A stretch of 52,868 nt of DNA, from positions 1 through 52,868 of the forward strand of contig JAHIUN010000009.1 of NCBI GenBank assembly GCA_018817125.1. Direction: 5' to 3'. Both the position numbers and the translations under genes were made by a program. Below the pieces are notes generated by a model. It was not told the DNA's origin. It made no database searches and saw only the letters and a program-made list of their open reading frames with translations. Positions 12,384-41,422 of this stretch are shown in pieces (the first letter of the stretch is position 1; each line of letters starts with the position of its first letter). The stretch is from Patescibacteria group bacterium (GTDB lineage Bacteria; Patescibacteriota; Gracilibacteria; UM-FILTER-43-11).

Positions 12384-12415
12384 AAGTCCGGACTCCATCG
12401 GAGTCCGGACTTTGG
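12384..12415 (+). terminator. Terminator after the macroglobulin gene
   Basis: A perfect 13-bp stem (AAGTCCGGACTCC at 12384-12396 with GGAGTCCGGACTT at 12400-12412) and a 3-nt loop, 9 bp after the stop, followed by a short T run. Confidence 0.85.
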
Positions 12416-13407: not shown

Positions 13408-13834
13408 TTAAATTTCATCCGTTAAATCCCCATATTCAGGATTGGTATAAACGTATGGCCATGCCTTCGGTGGTTTGATTAATATGTAATGATGTTGTTC
13501 GTTTTAAATTATGTATTATTTCCGAATAATTCCATTTGTCATCCGGCATCACCAATAAATGAAAATGATTGTAAACCAAAACCCACCCAAACAACAAAAA
13601 TCCTTTCAACCGTTTACACAACCGTAAATTTTCTCTTCGAGCCTGAGCTTCTTCACCATATTTACAACGCAAAAGTTTTGTGACAATTTTTGATACCTCA
13701 GAGCCGATGGCCATAAACAAATCACAAAAAATCCGTTCGCGGAAAAACGGGACATTCCCCTCCGTTTTACACGAAATAAAATAACACGCATCCTTAAAAT
13801 AAATGCGCTTTTGGCTGTCGCGATGTAATAACAT
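13408..13834 (-). pseudogene. Remnant of a REP-associated tyrosine transposase (Y1/TnpA_REP family)
   Basis: The open frame (13436-13834, 132 codons) begins like a RAYT/TnpA_REP protein and reaches the HUH-type motif YNHFHLLVMPDD (His90, His92) and the helix EIIHNLKRTTSLHI. It then runs off into a short unrelated tail. The +1 frame over the same DNA continues as YILIKPPKAWPYVY to a stop at 13408, which resembles the usual family C-terminus (YI..NPVKAG..P..WPYS). The simplest reading is an internal deletion removing the middle with the catalytic Tyr helix, together with a frameshift. These single-strand transposases move short palindromes, which is notable given the many palindromes in this window. 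Probably inactive. Confidence 0.7.
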
Positions 13835-15139: not shown

Positions 15140-17557
15140 ATGTACGATCCCTCAAAGATTGAACCCAAGTGGCAGAAATATTGGCTGAAAAATAAGACAT
15201 TTAAGGCTGATGCTGATACGAAAAAGAAAAAGTATTATGTGCTGGACATGTTCCCTTATCCCAGCGGAGCGGGTTTACATGTGGGCCATCCCGAAGGGTA
15301 CACCGCGACGGATATTATCTGCCGTTATAAACGGATGAAAGGGTTTAATGTACTTCATCCCATGGGGTGGGATGCCTTTGGATTACCCGCGGAAAATTAC
15401 GCCATCAAGACCGGCCGCCATCCGCGGGAGGTGACCGAAGAAAACATCGCCACGTTCAAAAAACAGATCCAGTCCATCGGTTTTTCATACGATTGGGACC
15501 GCGAAGTCGACACGACCGATCCGGATTACTATCGCTGGACGCAGTGGATCTTTTTACAGCTTTATAAAAAAGGACTGGCGTATGAATCCGAACTGCCGAT
15601 CAACTGGTGCCCAGGCTGTAAAACCGGTCTGGCGAATGAGGAAGTGGTGGACGGCAAATGCGACCGGTGCGGCACCAAAACCACCAAAAAACTCCTGCGC
15701 CAGTGGGTGCTTAAGATTACGGATTATGCCGACCGTCTGCTGGATGATTTGTCAGATCTGGACTGGCCGGAGCCGATTAAGATCATGCAGGAGAACTGGA
15801 TCGGGAAAAGTTATGGAACTAACGTCAAATTCGAAATCCTAAATTCGAAATCCGAAATTAATGTTTATACAACGCGGGTCGATACCCTTTTTAGTGCCGC
15901 TTATATGGTGCTTGCCCCGGAGCACCCGCTTGTTTATAAAATTACAACTGATGAGCAAAAAGAAGAAGTCGAGAAATACAAAGAATTTGCTTTGATGAAA
16001 AGTGATCTTGAAAGAACTGATTTAGCCAAAGATAAGACAGGTGTATTTACTGGAGCTTACGTTGTTAATCCGATTAATGACAAAAAAATTCCTGTTTGGA
16101 TTGGTGATTTTGTTCTGGCCAGCTATGGCACAGGAGCAGTTTTTGCCGATGCCCACGATGAACGAGATTTTGAATTTGCAAAAAAATATGACATTCCTAT
16201 CACTGTATCCATCCGTCCGGAGGGCGATGAACAGTGGGAGCGTGTTAAAAACTTTGAAGAATGTTTTACCGATGATGGAATTTTAGTTAATTCAGATAAA
16301 TTTGACGGCTTAACGTCCGAAAAAGCTCGTTTCGAAATAACTCGGCATCTCGAAGAAAAACAGCAGGGTGAAGGCGCGGTCAATTACAAATTAAAAGACT
16401 GGGTTTTTTCCCGTCAGCGATATTGGGGCGAGCCTATTCCGATTGTCCATTGTGAGAAGTGCGGAGTGGTTCCTCTGGATGAAAAAGACCTGCCGTTACT
16501 CCTTCCTGATGTCAAAAATTACGAACCCACCGGCACCGGTGAATCGCCGTTGGCCGGCATCGATAAGTGGGTGAATACCAAATGTCCTAAATGCGGCGGG
16601 AAAGCGCGCCGTGAGACCAACACCATGCCTCAATGGGCGGGGAGCTGCTGGTATTATCTGCGTTACCTGAGTCCGAAAAGTGAGAAGGCGTTTGCGGATA
16701 AGGAGGACTTGGATTACTGGATGAATGTGGATCTGTATGTAGGCGGTGCGGAGCACGCGGTGCTCCATTTGCTGTACGCCCGTTTCTGGCATAAGGTGCT
16801 TTTTGATCTTGGATTTGCAAAAGACAAAGAACCATTCCAAAAACTGATGAATCAGGGTCTGATTTTGGGGGAAGATGGTGAAAAGATGAGCAAATCACGG
16901 GGTAATGTGGTGAATCCCGATGACGTGATCCGACAGTACGGCGCTGATACCTTACGTTTGTATGAGATGTTCATGGGGCCGTTTGACGCGGTAAAACCCT
17001 GGAGCACGAAAAACATCGAAGGAAGTTTTCGGTTTTTGCAGAAAGTGTGGCGTTTGGCGGAAGAAGGGGGGCTGACCGACGATAAGCCGGACGATGATTT
17101 GAATCGTCTGGTTCACAAAGCCATTAAAAAAGTCGGGGATGATATTGAGACATTCGGGTTTAATACCGCTATTTCGCAGATGATGATTTTGGCGAACGAA
17201 CTGATGAAGGTGAAAAAAATCCCTAAAGAAGCGATGGAAAAATTAGTGCTGATCTTATCTCCTTTTGCCCCGCATTTATGTGAGGAATTGTGGGAAAAGT
17301 TAGGATACAAAGGCGGCATTGCTTACGAAAAATGGCCGTCATTCGATCCGAAGCTGGTGGTCGATAGCACTTTTGAACTCGTATTCTCCGTGAACGGCAA
17401 GGTCAGGGGTAAAAAAGAGGTACCGATGGATATTTCTGAAGAAGACGCTATTAAAGAAGCGCTGGCCGACTCCGGTGTTAAGCGGAATATTGAAGGAAAG
17501 GAGGTGATTAAAAAGATCTACGTGCCGAAGAAATTGGTAAATATAGTAGCTGTCTGA
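15140..17557 (+). CDS. leuS: Leucyl-tRNA synthetase
   Basis: An 805-residue class I aminoacyl-tRNA synthetase charging tRNA-Leu. The Rossmann signature is HVGH at 47-50 ([16 protein letters not shown]). The CP1 editing domain is present with TTRVDTLF and the [14 protein letters not shown] motif that clears mischarged tRNA. Zinc-type Cys pairs occur near residues 158-178 and in CP2. KMSKS is at 582-586, followed by the anticodon-binding and C-terminal domains (ending NIVAV). Two things are odd: a linker at the start of the editing domain is coded by two tandem copies of a 14-bp word (15827-15854), and codon use turns AT-rich through about 15930-16350. Its TGA stop lies inside the palindrome that follows. 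Confidence 0.98.
15827..15854 (+). repeat. Two tandem 14-bp words inside leuS
   Basis: AAATTCGAAATCCT and AAATTCGAAATCCG follow each other and are continued by AAATT. They code in frame for the linker [11 protein letters not shown] at the entry to the CP1 editing domain. The word matches the one reiterated in the intergenic palindrome at 28571-28700 (ATCCGAAATCCGAA). Confidence 0.85.
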
Positions 17558-17677
17558 ACTGTGATTTATGTGATTAAATGAAGGTCATGATTAATAACAT
17601 GATTTTTATGATTGGTAATAATCTATAAAAATAGGATCATGTTAAATCAATGAATCATAATAATCACAGTTCAGACC
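17553..17677. repeat. Intergenic palindrome between leuS and the PilX-like gene
   Basis: Starts TCTGAACTGTGATT and ends with the complement AATCACAGTTCAGA; the arms consist of TGATT-type words spaced by 8-10 bp (about 55 bp per arm). It fills the whole gap between two convergent genes and supplies the TGA stop of leuS. It could fold into a long hairpin and act as a bidirectional terminator. Confidence 0.85.
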
Positions 17678-17680
17678 TCC

Positions 17681-18859
17681 TTATTCCTGCTGAATGATCG
17701 TAAAGTCAAATAATGGCACGGTGGTTTTTGGTGTAATGGTTGTGGTAAGGGATTGTTTGAAATTCCGGTAATATCCGTCGGATTTGATACGAATAAAGGG
17801 ATAGGGAATCAAATCAGAGCTCGAGTCCACTTTGTATTCAAAGTAGGGGATTTCGATCCGATGCATGCTGCCGCCTGAGAACTGCATATGCTCCATCGGT
17901 GCAACGATAAGGAACTCAAAAAGAAGTTTCGAATGAGTGTCGGCTGAGGCACGGTTAATGAAAGCTTCAATCGTTTCAAATTCTCCATTTTCATTGATCC
18001 CGGAATCGAGTTGATCAAGGGTAATCGTATAATCATTTCCCGGTCCGAATTCCTGCTCGCACAATTCTGATTTTTCATTTCCGCTTCCTGCCGCACCGGA
18101 TTCACTCAGACAGCCACGGATGGGATTCAGACTTTTTTCTGCGCCGTCCGACATCTTCCATAAAATCACCGGGTCTTTTTCACTGTCTTCATTCACTTTG
18201 CCGTCACAGTCACTGTCTTCCGGATTTTCGGGGCAGTTTTCAAGGTCTTCCTGTTCAACAGGTTCATCAGGGTCTTCATTGATGTTTGCCTGACTTCCGT
18301 CGAAATCCTGGTCATTATCGATTTTTAATTTGCCCGAGCTGACGATTCCTTCGGGAACTTTAAACGCCATGCTGAAGGTTCCATTGATGGTTTCGATATC
18401 GGTGTCAGAGAACGGCCCCTGGTTGATGGCGTTGGCGGGGAGATCGGTGCGGTAATTCGTATCATTATAAAGATAGATCATCAGTTTCTGATTTGCGTAA
18501 AAACGGCCGGAGAACGTGGTTTCTCCGCTGCTGATGCTTTCCACTTCCCACTCATTGCACCAAAGGGAAGTTCCGGAGTCACATGAGTCGGCATTTATAA
18601 AATTAATGTTGCGCACCCCTTCATCTCCTAAGGGCGGGGTTTCGTAGCCCGCGAAATGGGGAGTGAGTTCATACAGCGCGTCCTCTAAGCCGGCTTCTGC
18701 GGCCAGATAGGCCCGATTACTCGCTTCAATGCGTGAGGCAGACTGAAGTCCTCGTATAATCAGCTGGCTGACTGCGACAGATGAGACCATCAGCAGGGTA
18801 ACGAGTCCGATGACGAGCGGCATTGAAACCCCTTTGCTGTTCAGAATTTTAATGGGCAT
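17681..18859 (-). CDS. Minor pilin, PilX/GspK-like
   Basis: A 392-residue type IV pilin-like protein. The N-terminus SKG|VSMPLVIGLVTLLMV is a prepilin leader with a hydrophobic helix, followed by RAYLAAEAGLEDALYEL, the conserved stretch after the helix in PilX_N/GspK proteins (AE-AG). Like GspK it has no Glu at +5 of the mature chain, as expected for the subunit at the very tip. The ectodomain holds an Asp/Glu-rich, calcium-binding-looking stretch (DCDGKVNEDSEKDP) and several Cys. It is the last of four co-directional pilin genes in FimT-PilV-PilW-PilX order, 12 bp after the PilW-like gene. Together they should form the priming/tip complex of a type IV or competence pilus; the pilus motor genes are not in this window. 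Confidence 0.8.
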   Translation of the reverse strand: MPIKILNSKGVSMPLVIGLVTLLMVSSVAVSQLIIRGLQSASRIEASNRAYLAAEAGLEDALYELTPHFAGYETPPLGDEGVRNINFINADSCDSGTSLWCNEWEVESISSGETTFSGRFYANQKLMIYLYNDTNYRTDLPANAINQGPFSDTDIETINGTFSMAFKVPEGIVSSGKLKIDNDQDFDGSQANINEDPDEPVEQEDLENCPENPEDSDCDGKVNEDSEKDPVILWKMSDGAEKSLNPIRGCLSESGAAGSGNEKSELCEQEFGPGNDYTITLDQLDSGINENGEFETIEAFINRASADTHSKLLFEFLIVAPMEHMQFSGGSMHRIEIPYFEYKVDSSSDLIPYPFIRIKSDGYYRNFKQSLTTTITPKTTVPLFDFTIIQQE

Positions 18860-18871
18860 TAAAAATAATAA

Positions 18872-21800
18872 TTATGGGCAGGTAAACGAAACGCGAAGGT
18901 CCGACAGCCACGGGTTGAATGTGCCGACCGTATCGACCAGTTTTGCTTTCCAGACAAGACTGTTGTCATTCGTTCCGAAATTAACGTTGAAGCCAATGTC
19001 CGCCGCGGTAAGCCAGTCATTGCCTGAACAATCATTCTTACCGCACCAGTTCAGGCCGCCGTCATTGGAAAGCTGCCATAAAACATTTGTCTGGCCTCCT
19101 GATTCTATCACCTTGTCATCGAAGGTGGCGTTCTGTATCTGAGCGGTGAGCACACGAGGACAGCTGGCCGGATTAAACGGAATAGACTCGCTGATGATCT
19201 CGCCTTCAATGGCGCCCGTGTTCACGTTTAGTGTGTAAGTGCCATTCGCGTAGGTGATGGTATCGTTGTCGTAAGACTGAATATAATTTTGTGAGGAAAG
19301 CTGGTCAAAGAAACTTCGCTGATTCCAGTTGAGGCAATAGTAATCATTTATTCCCACCAGTCCGTTGCAGTTGTCATCACTATTCGAACCGTCGCCTGCC
19401 AGGCTGAGTGTGTCATTGCATACCTCGAGGTTTGTATTGAACGGGAAGCCGGTTACATTACAGCATTCCGGTTCAAAGGTCTCATCGGCCAGGGCGGCAA
19501 TCGGGTCGGCTTTTGTGTCCAGGTGGTCAAAGCGCTGATTGCCTGTGGCCGCGCTGATCCGGCAGTTGTTGTTGATGCCGTCGGTGCATTTGACCTGATT
19601 GTTTTCCAGAACATTGGGATGAATACTGGCGTCGGTATCATCGCAGTCATAAGACGGCCGTTCTTCGAGTGAGAAAAGGGTTGCACTGCATTCAGGAGGA
19701 TTCCCTTTATATAGATTCGCTTCCTGAATACCGAAGCCGTCCGCGTCGGTGTCTACACAGCAGGCCGGGTCGCTGTGGTCCCAGCCGTCGTCTCCAATTG
19801 CTACGGCATAACGGGCGTTCACAAAACTGCAGTTATTGTCGATCGGTTCACCGACTAAGGGTGAGCCGACTCCGTATGTCGCGTCATCGCACACTTCGGC
19901 ATTATCCTCATCAGGTAGTCCGTCCGCGTCATTATCAATACCCGGTTTGATATCGATATTTGTGTCATCGCAGTCGATGATGCCATAAGGATCGTAGGAA
20001 TCCGATTTTTTATCTTCTGATTCACAGGTGTTTACGCCGATGGGTCCCATAAAACTGTCATTGTCATTGTCCGGACAGCAGTCGTTGTCGCTGTTGATTC
20101 CTTGATTGCCGTCATAAGTGCTATCACAGTCGTTATCGACTCCGTCATCACAAATCGTTTCCACGCCTGCTTCATACGGCTTGATGCCTTGGCACAGTCC
20201 GCCGGTATCCGTGCATATTTCATCCAGTTCCGTATCGATATCAAAAGGGGCGTCAAAGTCTTCATAATTTCCAAGGAAGTCATACCACACATAGTCATCG
20301 GGATCCGGCGGGTTTTGAGCCAGTACGCCCATTCCCGCGAAGGCCTGGTCGTGCAGGGTATTACTGCAAAGGGTGGTCGTGCAGTCTAAATCGAATTCAT
20401 CAGCGCCGCCTGAGTAGTCTAACAGATTGTAATCACAATCATTGTCCAGGCCGTCAACGCACAGTACGCCCACTTCATCCCCTTCATCCACCAGCCGGTG
20501 GTGTTCGTCGTCATCAGGATTGGTGGCGCGGTCACACAATCCGCCGATATCAATGCAGACCTCATGCAGTTCGTCGGATTCAGTTTTTCCGATCAGATAA
20601 TTCGGATTGTCATAAAAGCGCGGTCCCAGCGCACCATCGGCTGGGTCTTTAATGCCATTGTTACACATGATCTCGATGCAGTTTTGGTCATATTCATCCG
20701 CGCCCTGCCGTAAGGCGATATTCCATTCCGCCACGGAATTGTTTTCATCCAATCCTTCATAAGTCATATAATCCTCCTGGCCTGCGGTCACGATAGTATC
20801 CCACGTGAGTTCAAAATCATAATTACAGTCATTGTCATAGCCGTCTGAACAATTAGATTCATTCAGGGTCAGCGGGCGGAAATAACACGCCCCGCCCACA
20901 TCGATACACTCCTCCCCCGGGTCCAGATAGCCGTTGTTACACAGATGAACCAGACAGTTTGGGTCCGCTTCATCAATCAGGCCGTCTCCGTCATTGTCTA
21001 CGCCGTCATGACAGCGGCGGTTTTTACATCCATCATTCCCGTCGCAGGAATTCATTTCATTTTTTCCGCCTTCGTAGTAAGTCCTTCCCCCTTCCCCGTC
21101 AAATGGGGATTCATGGTCGAGCCCATCAGTTTCCGGCGGATCGATGGGTACCAGCAGTTCTCCTTCCATCCGAACCGGGGTGATGAGACCGCTGACGATA
21201 TTATCAAATGCCTGTTCCTTATATATTTCTTCACTGCATCCCGGCCATACTCCCTGAACACAAGTCTGCTGAGCTCCCGAGACGATTCCCTGATTTTTTG
21301 GGCAGGGCCTGATGTCACCGTTGATGCATTCCTGCAAATTGCATTCCGTGATGATTTCACTCTGCGTACGGGAAGAGATGGTGGATTCCAGAACAATATC
21401 CGGCGTATTTCCCCTGATCTGACTGGCAATACGCGGGCTGGCGCGGATGATTAATTTTACCGTTACATGAGGCTGGATCTGCACATCAGGATCTGCGTAA
21501 GCTTTTCGCGGGTCATCGCTGGGAGTGATGAAAAATTTCAGATCTACCACGTCTAACGAGGAAGGAGTGATGTCTACATAACTGCTGTTTTCCAGGTTGT
21601 CGGGATCGTCACGAATCACTTCCACTTGTCCTGAACAATCTGGAGCAAGGTCACCGGGAGTTACGAAACTGCAGTCAAAACCGTCATCACATACCCACGT
21701 GTCCACCAGGCCGTCTTTTTCTCCCTCATCCCGTCCGCAGTTGAAGCTGTTTTCTCCGTCCGCCAGATGATCGACTCCATAATCTTTACCCACCAGCTTT

Positions 21801-22300
21801 AAAAGCGCGACTTTGCCGATGGGGTTTCCCAGCTCATCGGTGGTTTCAATTCGTCTTAAATACGTCCGATGGATGCCGGCAGGATCGATAAGATAAAGCT
21901 GTTCCTGAATCGGGCTTTCTATCGGGGCGGCTGTATCCGGATTCCGGACACCAGTGCTTTCATCGTCGTAAGTACCGTATTTTCCATCAGGTCCCGCGGA
22001 ATAAAACTGCCGGCTGTACTGGCAGTAGTTCTGGCCATACGTCTCATTAATGCCGGTGCCGAAAAAGTTAGCGGACTGGTTATAATATTCTTCATAATCC
22101 ACACTGCCGTTCCGGATCTCTTTCACAATCCGCTCCATAACAAAGCGGGCTTCTTCATAAACGGTGTTGGCTGCTTTGATGTTCCGGTAAGAATTGAAGA
22201 AATTGGTGTAGATCCCGGTTGCCGTGGTGATTAAAACTCCCAGAATAAACGTGGAGACGAGAAGTTCGGCGATTGTGAAACCCTTCCGATTGAGGCCTAT
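18872..22300 (-). CDS. Giant PilW/GspJ-like minor pilin with MopE-type Cys/Asp repeats
   Basis: About 1142 residues. The prepilin signature NRKG|FTIAELLVSTFILG (Glu5 present) lies upstream of the first in-frame ATG (22138). No ATG, GTG or TTG exists between it and the upstream stop, so the start is probably the near-cognate ATA at 22300 (giving MGLNRKGFTIAELL); initiation at 22138 would lose the whole pilin helix. The ectodomain has at least five copies of C-x-D-G-x-D-N-D-C and DCDDTDASIHP-type motifs, as in MopE/TSP3-like calcium- or copper-binding proteins, with many paired Cys. It fits the PilW position of the operon and would project a rigid metal-binding adhesin from the pilus tip. Its 5' end has been altered by a palindromic repeat. 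Confidence 0.8.
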   Translation of the reverse strand: MGLNRKGFTIAELLVSTFILGVLITTATGIYTNFFNSYRNIKAANTVYEEARFVMERIVKEIRNGSVDYEEYYNQSANFFGTGINETYGQNYCQYSRQFYSAGPDGKYGTYDDESTGVRNPDTAAPIESPIQEQLYLIDPAGIHRTYLRRIETTDELGNPIGKVALLKLVGKDYGVDHLADGENSFNCGRDEGEKDGLVDTWVCDDGFDCSFVTPGDLAPDCSGQVEVIRDDPDNLENSSYVDITPSSLDVVDLKFFITPSDDPRKAYADPDVQIQPHVTVKLIIRASPRIASQIRGNTPDIVLESTISSRTQSEIITECNLQECINGDIRPCPKNQGIVSGAQQTCVQGVWPGCSEEIYKEQAFDNIVSGLITPVRMEGELLVPIDPPETDGLDHESPFDGEGGRTYYEGGKNEMNSCDGNDGCKNRRCHDGVDNDGDGLIDEADPNCLVHLCNNGYLDPGEECIDVGGACYFRPLTLNESNCSDGYDNDCNYDFELTWDTIVTAGQEDYMTYEGLDENNSVAEWNIALRQGADEYDQNCIEIMCNNGIKDPADGALGPRFYDNPNYLIGKTESDELHEVCIDIGGLCDRATNPDDDEHHRLVDEGDEVGVLCVDGLDNDCDYNLLDYSGGADEFDLDCTTTLCSNTLHDQAFAGMGVLAQNPPDPDDYVWYDFLGNYEDFDAPFDIDTELDEICTDTGGLCQGIKPYEAGVETICDDGVDNDCDSTYDGNQGINSDNDCCPDNDNDSFMGPIGVNTCESEDKKSDSYDPYGIIDCDDTNIDIKPGIDNDADGLPDEDNAEVCDDATYGVGSPLVGEPIDNNCSFVNARYAVAIGDDGWDHSDPACCVDTDADGFGIQEANLYKGNPPECSATLFSLEERPSYDCDDTDASIHPNVLENNQVKCTDGINNNCRISAATGNQRFDHLDTKADPIAALADETFEPECCNVTGFPFNTNLEVCNDTLSLAGDGSNSDDNCNGLVGINDYYCLNWNQRSFFDQLSSQNYIQSYDNDTITYANGTYTLNVNTGAIEGEIISESIPFNPASCPRVLTAQIQNATFDDKVIESGGQTNVLWQLSNDGGLNWCGKNDCSGNDWLTAADIGFNVNFGTNDNSLVWKAKLVDTVGTFNPWLSDLRVSFTCP

Positions 22301-22385
22301 TGAAGACCCATTGAGGACCCGATGGATTGAAAATCCGATCCTCAGTCTATTGGGTCTTCGATTGGGCCCTCTATTGGAATATGCC
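22265..22385. repeat. Palindromic element at the 5' end of the PilW-like gene
   Basis: On the minus strand one arm reads TTCCAATAGAGGGCCCAAT-CGAAGACCCAAT and the other is the approximate complement (GGGTCCTCAATGGGTCTTCA...GGCCTC). The first arm matches the element at 45030-45083 in 29 of 31 positions. It occupies the gap between the PilV-like stop and the PilW-like prepilin signature and includes the place where a start codon should be. Confidence 0.8.
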
Positions 22386-22432
22386 TCTGATATATTGTTA
22401 TTTCGCTGTATTGTCGTGTCGTTAAAAAATAT

Positions 22433-23254
22433 TTAGCCGTTCAGCTGTTCGCGTCCTAAATAATCGGTAATATGGGTCGATAGTTTCACGTTATGTTCCA
22501 TCCGGCTGTCCCGCCATATTACCGTCACCGTGACCCGCATGCGGTTCAGACTGCTGGGGACGGCTGCATTAAATTCCCCCGGAGTGCTGATCAGCCCGCC
22601 TCCGTCAGTAAGATACTGGATTTTAACCGTCCGACGGAAAATGGTTTTCTCCGCCTCTATTCCCAATCCGTCATCCTCCTCAATGTAAATATGATTGTAG
22701 GTATCCGTGTCATTCGTATAATTATGGTCCAGATCCGTGTCGGTGAGCGGGTCGATGTCGACCAGATACAGAGTCGCGAAATCGATCCACGCGATTCCAT
22801 CCCACACATAACTTTTGTTTTCACCCTCATGACGAAAGGTATCGCCTTTGGCATGGGATCCAGGAAAATCGGGACCGCTTGAGTCCATATTCAGAATATC
22901 ATTCAGTCGCCAGCGCTCCGTATCCTGTTTATAAATAATATAGTCTCCTGGCAGGATTAGTTCATTGTCAGCGCCGGTGCAGGGGGTGTTTGGGTCGGAT
23001 TGAGGTTCAAAGTTCCAGCATTGCCGGCGTTTGCTGGCAAATTTGAGCCAGTTCGTGTCCCGGATGTTTCGGACGGCCTCAACGCCTTCACGCGCGATGT
23101 TTACCGCTACGACCCGGTTTTTCGCAATGTGCACATTCCCTAATGACGAGCCGATGATCGCGCTCGAAAACATGACTCCAAAAGACAGGATCGTCATCGC
23201 GATGATGGCTTCTAAAATACTTTCTCCCCCCCTGCTTTTTAAAGAAAGTCTCAT
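22433..23254 (-). CDS. Minor pilin, PilV/GspI-like
   Basis: A 273-residue prepilin. The leader SRGG|ESILEAIIAMTILSFG keeps Glu at +5 and the I-type motif LEAIIAMTIL, typical of PilV/GspI subunits. It is followed by NIAREGVEAVRNIRDTNWL, a conserved region of this family. The globular part is acidic with calcium-loop-like DTDLDHNYTNDTDTY and ends in a beta-rich segment with the pattern of type IV pilus modification proteins (RMRVTVTVIWRD). It starts 5 bp after the FimT-like gene, so translation is probably coupled. Its stop TAA is in the same frame as the following PilW-like reading frame, so readthrough would fuse the two. Confidence 0.85.
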   Translation of the reverse strand: MRLSLKSRGGESILEAIIAMTILSFGVMFSSAIIGSSLGNVHIAKNRVVAVNIAREGVEAVRNIRDTNWLKFASKRRQCWNFEPQSDPNTPCTGADNELILPGDYIIYKQDTERWRLNDILNMDSSGPDFPGSHAKGDTFRHEGENKSYVWDGIAWIDFATLYLVDIDPLTDTDLDHNYTNDTDTYNHIYIEEDDGLGIEAEKTIFRRTVKIQYLTDGGGLISTPGEFNAAVPSSLNRMRVTVTVIWRDSRMEHNVKLSTHITDYLGREQLNG

Positions 23255-23259
23255 AAAAT

Positions 23260-24051
23260 TTACTCGTTACATTCGTCGGCACTGTATTCAAGAGCCGGGA
23301 ATGTTTTGATACGGTTAATGCGGATGAATTGGCATTTTTTAGCCGAATCTTCCGGGGCGGCAGGGTTAAAAAACTTAAGTCCCAATTCTTCCATCGAAGT
23401 TCCGCTTCCTAAAATATTATCACCGATGAACGTGTCGGCCAGGGGCGGGGTGTAGATCACCACCGCTTCTGTGGCAGTCGGCCCTTCGGGTTCTTCTGTG
23501 TCCCATTTCCATTCGTCTTCAAAATAGAATGAATGGAAGTGAAGCAGATTGCCGGGAATTTCAAATGTTTTGATGATTTTATCGTTTCCGTCAAATCGTT
23601 TGGCGCTGTTTTCATTGTCATCGTTCTGATAGTTTTCATAATCCGGTCCAGATCCCAGGTTGGCAAATAAGGTGAAAGTGGAATTGGTATTAGGGTCCGG
23701 TTCGAGTTTTATATATACTCCGTATCCGTCTGCCGGGATCAGATCCTGATTCAGTGCTTCTATACGAACCCCTCTGCTCGTACTGGCAAAATTGCGCGCG
23801 TCAGTCAGTATTCCTGTCATCTGGATGAAAGCTTCATTGAATTCAAAACGATCCCGTTCCTGAAAATAAATCCGTCCCCCGATGCCCATCAGGATGCCGG
23901 CGATGATCGTTACAATGAACATTTCCGCGATCGTAAAACCCTTCTTATCGTGATTATTAAGATGATTAAGACTATAACGACTATTAGGAGAATGTTTTCT
24001 CCATATTCTGCTTATCCCAATAGTCGTAATAATCTTAAAAATCACAATCAT
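23260..24051 (-). CDS. Minor pilin, FimT/GspH-like
   Basis: A 263-residue prepilin. The signature DKKG|FTIAEMFIVTIIAGILMGIG (Glu5 present) is followed by FQERDRFEFNEAFIQMTGILTDARNFASTSRGV, which fits the FimT/GspH pattern of a helix leading to a region that samples surface loops. The leader before the cleavage site is about 38 residues, far longer than the usual 5-10, and it is translated from a palindromic intergenic-type repeat (23945-24056). The ATG at 24051 lies 1 bp after the pgi stop. This is the first gene of the four-pilin set. A shorter start is not available because no other ATG precedes the signature in frame except inside the repeat (MWRK-like). Confidence 0.8.
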   Translation of the reverse strand: MIVIFKIITTIGISRIWRKHSPNSRYSLNHLNNHDKKGFTIAEMFIVTIIAGILMGIGGRIYFQERDRFEFNEAFIQMTGILTDARNFASTSRGVRIEALNQDLIPADGYGVYIKLEPDPNTNSTFTLFANLGSGPDYENYQNDDNENSAKRFDGNDKIIKTFEIPGNLLHFHSFYFEDEWKWDTEEPEGPTATEAVVIYTPPLADTFIGDNILGSGTSMEELGLKFFNPAAPEDSAKKCQFIRINRIKTFPALEYSADECNE

Positions 24052-24056
24052 CTTAA
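23945..24056. repeat. Palindrome translated as the leader of the FimT-like prepilin
   Basis: Minus-strand arm AAGATGATTGTGATTTTTAAG...ACGACTATT pairs with the plus-strand arm TGATTATTAAGATGATTAAG...ACGACTATT; about 40 bp per arm around a loop containing GGATAAGCAGAATATGG. It overlaps the end of pgi and the first ~36 codons of the prepilin gene. Confidence 0.8.
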
Positions 24057-25378
24057 GTTTTTTTAGATAAGAGGCTTTTGGTTATTTTTTTGCTTTCCTC
24101 TACTCCAGGCTGATTGAACGCGTTGACTTTATACATCAATCCCAGAAGCGCGACCTGGATCTCAAAGAGCATCAAGAGCATTCCGATGCTTTCCGCGTCG
24201 ATTTTCGGGATGTCGATCGTTACATTCGGCCGTTTGTTTTTGGTCAGAGATCCGACGGTTCCCTGAAGGGCAGCATCGATTATCTGATTAAGCTTTTTGC
24301 CATTCAGAAAACTAAGATTATCCGGTAGGTGGTTGCCGAGTTTTATCTCATTTTTATATTTTAAAAGGCGCAAAAAGATAAACCATTTATTATTAGGCCC
24401 TTCATTGTAAAGCTGAAGCTGAGAATGCTGGTCGGTTGTTCCAAGCGCGGTGATCGGCGTGGGGCCGACGGTGCTTTTTTTACCGATGCTTTCCGCGAGC
24501 AGCTGCCGATACCAGTCACCGATGCGGAAGAGGCGGTTGGAGTAAGGCATCATGACGGTCATCACTTTCCTTTTTCGTTTGTCGAGTAGGTATTGCAGGC
24601 AGGCCAGGATGAGTGCCGGGTTTTTTTCCGGAGTTGCTTTTTTAACCATTTCCCTCATTTTCTTTGCCCCTCTTAAAAGCGCGTTTGTATCAATCCCTAA
24701 CAGTGTTGCTGGCAGCAGTCCTACTGAAGACAGTACGCTGAACCGCCCTCCGATTTTAGGCGGGATATCGAAGCAGTCAATGCCCTCTTTTTTTCCAAAC
24801 TTCCGAAGGGTATTACCCCCTGTACCTGTTATGAATACAAAATGTTTTTTTAAGTCTTTTACCCCTTTTCCTATCAGCTTCTCCCGGAAAACACTATGAA
24901 GCGCCAGGGGTTCAGTTGTGCCGCCGGATTTGGAGATTACCACAAACAGGCTTTTTACAGGATCGATTACCGATAGCAATTCCGCTACATGATCCGGGTC
25001 GATGTTGTCGACTGCAAAAAATTGCGGCTTGATTTTTGGATTTTGATATTGTCCGATCAACGCTTCTTTGATCGCAATCGTTCCAAGCGCGGAACCGCCA
25101 ATACCCAGCAGTACGATATTTTCCCATTGATGTTTTCCCTGCTTCTTTACCCATTTTTTTATCTTTAGGAGTGCTGCCTGATCATCCGGTAAGTTTAAGA
25201 ACGCGTATCCTTCTTTATTCTTTGAGCGGAAAACGGTTTTGAGTAATCGATCATTCTTTTTGAGTGCACCTAAAAAAGCACGCCTGCTAACACCGTTCAG
25301 TACCCCGACTTTTTCGCTTAAAGCGTTTTGATAATCAACGTAGAGCATATTTTGTTTTGGTGGGATGTTTTTTGCCAC
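24053..25378 (-). CDS. pgi: Glucose-6-phosphate isomerase
   Basis: A 441-residue enzyme interconverting glucose 6-phosphate and fructose 6-phosphate. Visible motifs are LLGIGGSALGTIAIKEAL (sugar-phosphate isomerase fold), VISKSGGTTEPLALHSVF (phosphate-binding SIS loop), GGRFSVLSSVGLLPATLLG and GTTDQHSQLQLYNEGP with the catalytic His region near the C-terminal third. The length matches the short bacterial type (about 440-450). The given start is GTG; an ATG ten codons on (25348) is an alternative. It is followed by the pilin set with 1 bp spacing and preceded by ruvA at 59 bp. Confidence 0.96.
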   Translation of the reverse strand: MAKNIPPKQNMLYVDYQNALSEKVGVLNGVSRRAFLGALKKNDRLLKTVFRSKNKEGYAFLNLPDDQAALLKIKKWVKKQGKHQWENIVLLGIGGSALGTIAIKEALIGQYQNPKIKPQFFAVDNIDPDHVAELLSVIDPVKSLFVVISKSGGTTEPLALHSVFREKLIGKGVKDLKKHFVFITGTGGNTLRKFGKKEGIDCFDIPPKIGGRFSVLSSVGLLPATLLGIDTNALLRGAKKMREMVKKATPEKNPALILACLQYLLDKRKRKVMTVMMPYSNRLFRIGDWYRQLLAESIGKKSTVGPTPITALGTTDQHSQLQLYNEGPNNKWFIFLRLLKYKNEIKLGNHLPDNLSFLNGKKLNQIIDAALQGTVGSLTKNKRPNVTIDIPKIDAESIGMLLMLFEIQVALLGLMYKVNAFNQPGVEESKKITKSLLSKKT

Positions 25379-26004: not shown

Positions 26005-26049
26005 GAGGGTTTGATTAAGTGGTTATTATTGTAACCTTAAAAGTGCGAT

Positions 26050-26126
26050 AACAGCAATAGTTTAGAGCTCGAGCAATAGCATGTAGCTTAAACTATTGCC
26101 ATTGCTCTTTTCTCTTGCCATTGCCG
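26050..26126. repeat. AACAGCAATAG-family palindromic element, copy 1
   Basis: Begins AACAGCAATAGTTTAGAGC and is built of CAATAG/CTATTG words. Its reverse complement matches the element at 40422-40501 along nearly the full ~77 bp. It lies between the divergent ruvA and M23 genes, just upstream of the M23 promoter. Confidence 0.85.
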
Positions 26127-26136
26127 GTATTTAGGG

Positions 26137-40365: not shown

Positions 40366-40421
40366 AAAGTTCAGATTATCTATTTATTATAACATTTTTA
40401 CCTTTAAAAAGCCAGGTGAAT

Positions 40422-40501
40422 AACAGCAATAGCAAGAGAAAAGAGTCTATAGCAATAGTTTAAACTATATTCTATTGCTCGGGCTCTAAACTATTGCTGT
40501 T
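40422..40501. repeat. AACAGCAATAG-family palindromic element, copy 2
   Basis: Reads AACAGCAATAGCAAGAGAAA at the left and CTCTAAACTATTGCTGTT at the right. It is the inverted-orientation homologue of 26050-26126, from which it differs by a handful of substitutions and short gaps, and is itself an imperfect palindrome. It ends 2 bp before the PrsW stop codon. Confidence 0.9.
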
Positions 40502-40503
40502 AT

Positions 40504-41349
40504 TTACACCACCTTCAATATCTTCGTATTCAGCTTCTTCGTAAACAGATATGAGATATACAAAAATCCTCCAATAATCCCCGGCACTGCCATAAACGTC
40601 AGATTCTTACCGAATAATTCCAGACTCGTGGTCATATTAAAAATGATGTGAAGAAAGGTGGCCAGGATTATTCCTTCTAGCACCAGTACCTTTTTTTCAT
40701 GTCCGCCGCGTCGTGAAGGACGGGCTTTTAAAATATTCTGACGGATGATATGGAGGCTTAATATTTCGCGATTGATGAAGTCTTTGAGTTCGAAAGTCAG
40801 CAAATGTTTTTTAGAAAAGGGAGTGATCTGTTTCGAGAAGTAGGCGTACGCCCAGATGAGGCCGGCTAAGCCGGAAAAAAGCGTGTGGGCCAGCATTGTT
40901 CCCAGGTTTCGGAAGGCGACCACGTAAACGAAGTTTTCTCCATACAGATTGCTCGAAAGAAAACTGCTCAGGTAAAAAAGGTTTTCCATAAAAGCAAAAC
41001 CCAAAGCGGCTGTGACGGCGTAAACCACTCCGTCGATCAGCTGATTGAACTCCATCCGATGGCGGCTGACCACAAAAATGGCGGCGGACAGTTTTGCCAT
41101 TTCTTCCATAAGAGCAAAAACAATCGTACCCGACAGTCCGCTTAAAAATAAAGGACTTAGGTTGAGCCAGATTATTACATAGCGGAGAAAAATGAATGGA
41201 ATGACCATGGCGATCCCGACTAAAAATGTCTGGGCGATTGCTTTTTTTGGTTCAGGGTCTTTGGCGTCTTTTCTGTAATACAAAACAAGCCAGCCCATCG
41301 CCGGAATAAAGGCGAAGAAGAAGGCGATGGCTAGATTACTTATGTTCAT
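40504..41349 (-). CDS. PrsW-type intramembrane metalloprotease
   Basis: A 281-residue protein with about eight hydrophobic segments. The glutamic-type/CAAX-like signature is complete: E82-E83-x2-K86 in TM (ALMEEMAKLSAA), F120-M-E122-N123 (GFAFMENLFYL), H155 (TMLAHTLFSGLAG) and a later H in TFLHIIFNM. PrsW cleaves anti-sigma factors within the membrane in Bacillus, and related enzymes cleave other small membrane proteins; the substrate here is unknown. It lies 3' of greA, rpoD and dnaG on the same strand, but a palindrome separates it from greA. Confidence 0.9.
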   Translation of the reverse strand: MNISNLAIAFFFAFIPAMGWLVLYYRKDAKDPEPKKAIAQTFLVGIAMVIPFIFLRYVIIWLNLSPLFLSGLSGTIVFALMEEMAKLSAAIFVVSRHRMEFNQLIDGVVYAVTAALGFAFMENLFYLSSFLSSNLYGENFVYVVAFRNLGTMLAHTLFSGLAGLIWAYAYFSKQITPFSKKHLLTFELKDFINREILSLHIIRQNILKARPSRRGGHEKKVLVLEGIILATFLHIIFNMTTSLELFGKNLTFMAVPGIIGGFLYISYLFTKKLNTKILKVV

Positions 41350-41351
41350 AA

Positions 41352-41422
41352 CGAATAGTGGCTCGTATTGTGGCTCGTATTGTAGTTCACTATTCGAGCC
41401 ACCATTCGGTCCACAATACGGA
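41352..41422. repeat. Palindrome built of TCGTATTGTGG / CGAATAGTGG words
   Basis: GAATAGTGGCTCGTATTGTGGC recurs inverted (GCCACCATTCGGTCCACAATACG), with two tandem GGCTCGTATTGT words on the left. It fills the 74-bp gap between the greA stop and the PrsW start. Confidence 0.85.

Follow-up and report, generated by a model that had tools for sequence, protein, structure and literature searches.

The intervening sequence (IVS) in the 23S rRNA of Coxiella is a selfish element of 428 nt that carries an S23p ORF, to which no function has been assigned. The element has inverted repeats, is excised by RNase III and carries tandem heptamers before the ORF, and a mobile origin has been proposed (PMC4990558). 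The 23S rRNA-intervening-sequence protein (S23p, PF05635/TIGR02436; here called IVP) is a four-helix bundle. We know of no role for S23p/IVP proteins, and to our knowledge most descriptions of their elements come from 23S rRNA. The PF05635 family is similar to Avd of diversity-generating retroelements (PMC10053308). The Rickettsia palindromic elements (RPEs; Ogata et al., 2000) are described in PMC10969869 as palindromes of about 100–150 bp that are read in frame inside genes. The short tandemly repeated repetitive sequences (STRRs) of cyanobacteria, repeats of 7 bp with no known function, fold into hairpins in intergenic positions (PMC2670836).

The DNA analyzed here (the window, 52,868 nucleotides) is contig C15 of G000, a MAG of 1.03 Mb that is 88.7% complete. 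The closest relatives with a name are MAGs of Ca. Peregrinibacteria. Its minus strand carries a phosphoglucose isomerase (PGI) gene (24053–25378; PF00342, E 3e-42) and four prepilin genes in the order FimT-PilV-PilW-PilX, where the subunit names were assigned by position and motif. Prepilin leaders are removed by a peptidase, and their lengths vary between pilin classes.

A palindrome within the predicted leader of fimT

The FimT-like prepilin gene (23260–24051, minus strand) encodes 263 aa. N_methyl profile matches of the protein are below the cut-off (E 0.016), yet it has both the G↓FxxxE cleavage motif and the hydrophobic helix (KKG↓FTIAEMFIVTIIAGILMGIGG), and the prediction that it is a prepilin can be considered safe because of the FTIAE motif, the operon and the syntenic orthologues. 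The leader has 38 codons from the ATG at 24051 down to 23938 and reads MIVIFKIITTIGISRIWRKHSPNSRYSLNHLNNHDKKG, followed by FTIAEMFIV. The sequence-only reading had already attributed a 38-residue leader to a palindrome, which agrees with our results except that it ended the leader at 23945. It also called the leader several times longer than normal, and the median nearest-start leader among 34 related prepilins sampled is indeed 10 residues. Ordinary leaders are likewise seen within the operon for the PilV-like gene (MRLSLKSRGG; 22433–23254, minus strand) and, by eye, for the PilX-like gene (MPIKILNSKG; 17681–18859, minus strand). After the PilX-like gene lies an intergenic palindrome of another family (17552–17676; CTGAACTGTGATT), and similar ones are found at C7:48761 and C7:114671.

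The palindrome (23947–24056, no strand) is ≈110 bp long, consists of 9-bp units and has no IVP ORF of its own. It lies between PGI and fimT, not in 23S rRNA, and was recognized by its inverted repeat, its fold and its dispersed matches. The ungapped arms 23952–23992 and 24012–24052 are 78% complementary, and the arms 23947–23975 and 24020–24048 are 86% complementary. Folded as RNA it reaches −43 kcal/mol compared with −22.5 ± 3.2 kcal/mol for shuffled sequences (z −6.4), and none of 200 shuffles equaled it. Both the start codon and almost the entire leader come from the palindrome, and the frame crosses both arms and the loop into KKG↓FTIAEMF. The ATG sits within the outermost repeat unit, 1 nt past the TAA of PGI, and this stop codon is also part of the palindrome. 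A GTG two codons in is the only other canonical start ahead of the cleavage site.

A DNA search with a prepilin-borne copy as query gave 13 matches in G000, at ∼12 places, and we refer to this repeat as family A. Inspected by eye, the copies consist of position-specific degenerate 9-bp units, with TTARGAYTA on the outside and TTACGACTATTAGGA adjoining the loop. Terminal inverted repeats, the lack of an ORF and multiple dispersed copies are the MITE criteria seen for the fimT palindrome. Family A is patchily distributed, being present in G000, G004, G007 and G012 with one match in G002, and no match was found in G001, a genome of the same genus. It is part of a larger population: ∼100 strong hairpins were found in 443 kb of G000 (605 kb were sampled for G001). 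The majority sit at junctions between genes or next to them, and many are members of other families, whose units measure 7 to 12 bp.

G001 represents a sister species with the same operon. The mature FimT, PilV and PilW are 85–86% identical between the two genomes, with dN about 0.09 and dS about 1.0–1.2. The FimT leader of G001 has only 15 residues (MKIKNLKLKILRSNG), no palindrome is present there, and the end of PGI differs. At other junctions, most G000 palindromes are either missing in G001 or swapped for a different one. Because the element is absent at fimT of G001 and most others are absent or replaced there, we regard the fimT palindrome as specific to the G000 side and such palindromic elements as fast in their turnover. 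The earlier proposal that a palindrome of the intergenic class altered the 5′ end of fimT with the frame kept open fits these observations, as well as the dispersed family and a paralog with a clean empty site (see below). A long leader peptide conserved among relatives would have pointed to selection for the peptide itself, whereas the fimT leaders of the relatives vary in both length and sequence.

Palindromes in the leaders of other prepilins

A prepilin on contig C11 of G000 has a 43-residue leader that is mostly a family-A palindrome. Its ortholog in G001 begins with ATG AAA AAT AAA AAA GGA directly before the TTT of the cleavage site (leader MKNKKG). The flanks match on both sides, and the two genes differ by 37 codons (111 nt) in frame, with the ancestral ATG kept in the G000 copy. 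No clear target-site duplication was seen when this empty site was compared between G000 and G001.

Family-A arrays encode the leaders of nine of ∼40 prepilins sampled in four genomes. These include G007 (contig C1) and the prepilins of G004 contig C97, and family-A right arms run into prepilins in G012 and on contig C2 of G000. The reading frame is the same every time (PNSR, SLN, SPN). Among 34 sampled prepilins with a canonical start, nine have their nearest start at least 20 codons before the cleavage site; family-A arrays make up eight of these nine long leaders but no short one. Compared with roughly 27 of ∼4,500 other genes, the nine of ∼40 prepilins are a strong excess (p about 1e-11, or 7e-6 with clustered cases merged). 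This test used an estimated gene total, a DNA query taken from a prepilin-borne copy and places chosen in part from previous hits, and prepilins of the same operon do not count as independent cases. A pilin operon in G004 (L278; G004:C97:1–7000) has four prepilins whose leaders are translated 9-bp arrays such as PNSPNSPNSPNSPN.

The sequence-only reading had counted fimT as the second altered prepilin of its operon. The PilW-like gene supports this count, although the implied contrast between an open frame in fimT and a broken one in the other gene does not hold, as the PilW-like frame is also open and what it lacks is a canonical start codon. This open frame extends back to the PilV stop (18872–22432, minus strand), and from that stop to KG↓FTIAELL (22283–22432) there is no ATG, GTG or TTG in G000; the frame is shared with pilV. 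In G001 the gene has only a TTG, 50 codons upstream of the cleavage site. A non-AUG start, either an ATA directly after the PilV stop or an ATA/ATC nearer the site, is possible and would be the simplest reading. Further prepilins in G007 and G012 (L016, L020, L271, L274, L275) also lack a canonical start ahead of the cleavage site, and in some of them other short-unit repeats (TCTAAAA, TTTTCAA) stand at the 5′ end.

The 5′ end of the PilW-like gene carries a palindrome of a second family, family B (22283–22385, no strand; units of about 11 bp), which is conserved in the sister species and ends at the cleavage site in both genomes. The last 36 leader codons are 96% identical between G000 and G001 (104/108 nt), and 34 of the 36 third positions are identical compared with 60% for the whole gene (p 3e-6). 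Despite saturation at synonymous sites, the palindrome is 96–97% identical between the two species, and the constraint on it, judged from these substitutions, is one that acts on DNA or RNA and not only on the peptide.

IVP genes and a proposed origin of the palindromes

In G012:C13 and G004:C97 the family-A arms are found about 370 bp apart and enclose an ORF that matches PF05635/TIGR02436 (E about 1e-30 to 1e-34). The same arrangement, with an IVP ORF between family-A arms, is seen at G000:C2:58341. In each of these genera a single open frame spans the IVP ORF, the right arm and a prepilin, and it follows a GspE-kind ATPase gene (L212 1315–2373 in G000:C2, L162 766–1806 in G012:C13 and L163 585–1643 in G004:C97). 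No canonical start lies between the right arm and the cleavage site in any of the three, and the IVP domain may act as a 125-residue prepilin leader.

Inverted arrays are a general feature of IVP genes, of which G000 has 16. Flanking inverted arrays (score ≥15) were found for 92% of 48 IVP loci from this bacterial family (44 of them distinct) compared with 6% of 365 control genes (p 2e-26). Across the phylum the corresponding values are 86% of 29 IVP loci and 2% of controls (p 8e-14), and eight of nine plasmid IVP loci of cyanobacteria and Riemerella have arms. The arms are short-unit arrays, and each element has a unit of its own. IVP genes follow the direction of both codirectional neighbors in 47 cases and oppose both in three (p 4e-11). 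On cyanobacterial plasmids, array-armed IVP genes also lie tightly between CRISPR genes in the same orientation (L253 and L256; cas10/cmr3 and cas6/cas4).

The hairpins of G000 can be matched to these arms. Of 106 hairpins, 43 match the flanks of 14 G000 IVP genes above a threshold that about one would be expected to reach by chance; these 43 include one arm that belongs to an IVP gene itself. The fimT palindrome pairs best with the flanks of G000:C2:58341 (score 24; the 99% level of the null is 17), and the pilW palindrome pairs with those of the IVP gene C12:22546. Elsewhere in the window, short-unit palindromes at 26021–26130, 40401–40510 and 41364–41420 match the flanks of the IVP genes C10:29118 and C1:47998. 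A 547-bp IVP element occupies the C10:47281 junction in G000, and G001 has only joined, shortened arms there. We found no report of non-rRNA IVP genes with short-unit inverted arms or miniatures in an open-access library, which was the scope of the search.

In our reading the short palindromes are miniature IVP elements, because they match IVP arms and because only joined arms are left at C10:47281 in the sister. The opposite direction would be that the arrays are target sites and that IVP genes entered pre-existing palindromes rather than drove their spread. The single comparison at C10:47281 does not prove direction. The left arm is also shorter in the sister, which fits a deletion better than an insertion, and each IVP gene has its own unit family and across the phylum nearly every IVP gene has arms, so that we consider the target-site explanation rather unlikely.

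For fimT, the comparisons above make it likely that the palindrome is an ORF-less miniature of an IVP-type element which replaced the start codon and short leader of the gene and is read as its leader. The full-length element would consist of two inverted arrays of a short degenerate unit flanking an IVP gene (PF05635). A family-A miniature, presumably spread by the IVP element, would have reached the PGI-fimT junction in the G000 lineage and replaced the old stop codon, the start codon and the short leader. Since the 9-bp unit is three codons long and can stay open, the right arm could be read straight into KKG↓FTIAE in the PNSR-SLN frame. The ATG of the outermost unit would then serve as the start, probably by termination-reinitiation from PGI (TAA-G-ATG), with cleavage presumably after KKG. 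As prepilin leaders are cut off and would need little beyond the residues of the cleavage site, an in-frame insertion may do little harm, which might explain why such fusions recur in prepilins. The change at fimT is a replacement and not a simple insertion, which counts against this explanation, and no target-site duplication was recognized for the elements.

The strong fold of the palindrome and its position between two codirectional genes could also indicate a regulatory RNA hairpin between cistrons (a terminator, attenuator, RNase III site or stabilizer) that is translated by chance, and rRNA IVS hairpins are known targets of RNase III (PMC4990558). This is unlikely, given that the palindrome is not conserved in the sister species, that its copies occur in all gene orientations and that no Rfam match was found. 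Across 59 hairpins between codirectional genes the sense strand was weaker by 1.3 kcal/mol (p 0.036). A role as RNA regulator was rejected for want of a sense-strand stability bias and of an Rfam match, and a simple terminator was rejected by the gene orientations.

It is just as improbable that the insertion killed fimT and left a recent pseudogene without a working start. No clear Shine-Dalgarno sequence precedes the ATG at 24051, and the only other start is the GTG mentioned above. The open frame might also be luck, as a family-A core is open in a given frame in about 12% of cases compared with 6% for shuffles. Against this, the mature frame is intact (dN 0.10, dS 1.06 relative to G001, values that do not tell when the insertion happened), the same kind of open fusion is seen in nine prepilins from four genomes, and the C11 case retains the ancestral ATG. 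That the palindrome is a REP/REPIN-type element mobilized by a RAYT (Y1) transposase is very unlikely, since the three Y1_Tnp-like matches in G000 (one of them an interrupted gene in the window) are offset by the family-A copies in G004 (90% complete) without any Y1_Tnp match, by arms that match IVP flanks instead, and by a different palindrome (AAGTCCGGACTCC…) about 1 kb from the Y1 gene.

RAYT was judged an unlikely partner, as a match is not found in every genome with family A. The interrupted Y1_Tnp (RAYT-like) gene and, about 1 kb away, the genome-recurrent palindrome AAGTCCGGACTCC..GGAGTCCGGACTT (13430–13624 and 12384–12412 of the window) are perhaps a separate REP/RAYT pair.

Implications and comparison with known systems

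If IVP genes are paired both with family-specific inverted arrays and with miniatures from the same genome, S23p/IVP proteins would gain a testable role and many unexplained bacterial palindromes a common origin. Prepilin leaders would be an entry place for in-frame elements because the mature protein no longer contains the leader. The chances seem even for a broader view, in which a large class of elements is built around IVP genes, ends in inverted short-unit arrays and spreads between genes that are transcribed together. On this view, the ORF-less miniatures would account for a large part of the intergenic palindromes in Patescibacteria and perhaps for the cyanobacterial STRRs. The strand bias of the IVP genes, together with their homology to the retrohoming factor Avd, would point to a mode of spread linked to RNA.

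Avd shares a homologous four-helix bundle with IVP, although scores of the Avd model are far below the cut-off, and unlike the retroelements neither G000 nor G001 has a PF00078 reverse transcriptase match. The STRRs resemble the IVP arms in that they are 7-bp arrays occurring as intergenic hairpins (PMC2670836), and IVP genes on plasmids of the Nostoc group have heptamer arrays on their flanks. A search of 100 kb from one Nostoc plasmid with four heptamers found no STRR-type miniatures, and a link between IVP arrays and STRRs is only suggested.

The RPEs, as far as their description goes, resemble the fimT palindrome in mode alone, as palindromes read in frame. They enter many kinds of genes and lie within the protein, whereas the known fusions here are in prepilin leaders that are cut off, and the account of RPEs cited above describes no link to IVP. 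REP/REPIN elements and their RAYT are similar in that miniature palindromes have a single-gene partner in the same genome, but the partner found here is IVP and not a Y1 transposase. The 23S rRNA IVS with an S23p/IVP ORF, known from Coxiella and Leptospira, shares PF05635, a total length of about 430 bp and more, inverted-repeat ends and, in Coxiella, short tandem repeats before the ORF (GACAGAT heptamers; PMC4990558). The IVP elements examined here differ in their position between protein-coding genes, in the family-specific arrays at either side and in the ORF-less miniatures that accompany them in the same genome.
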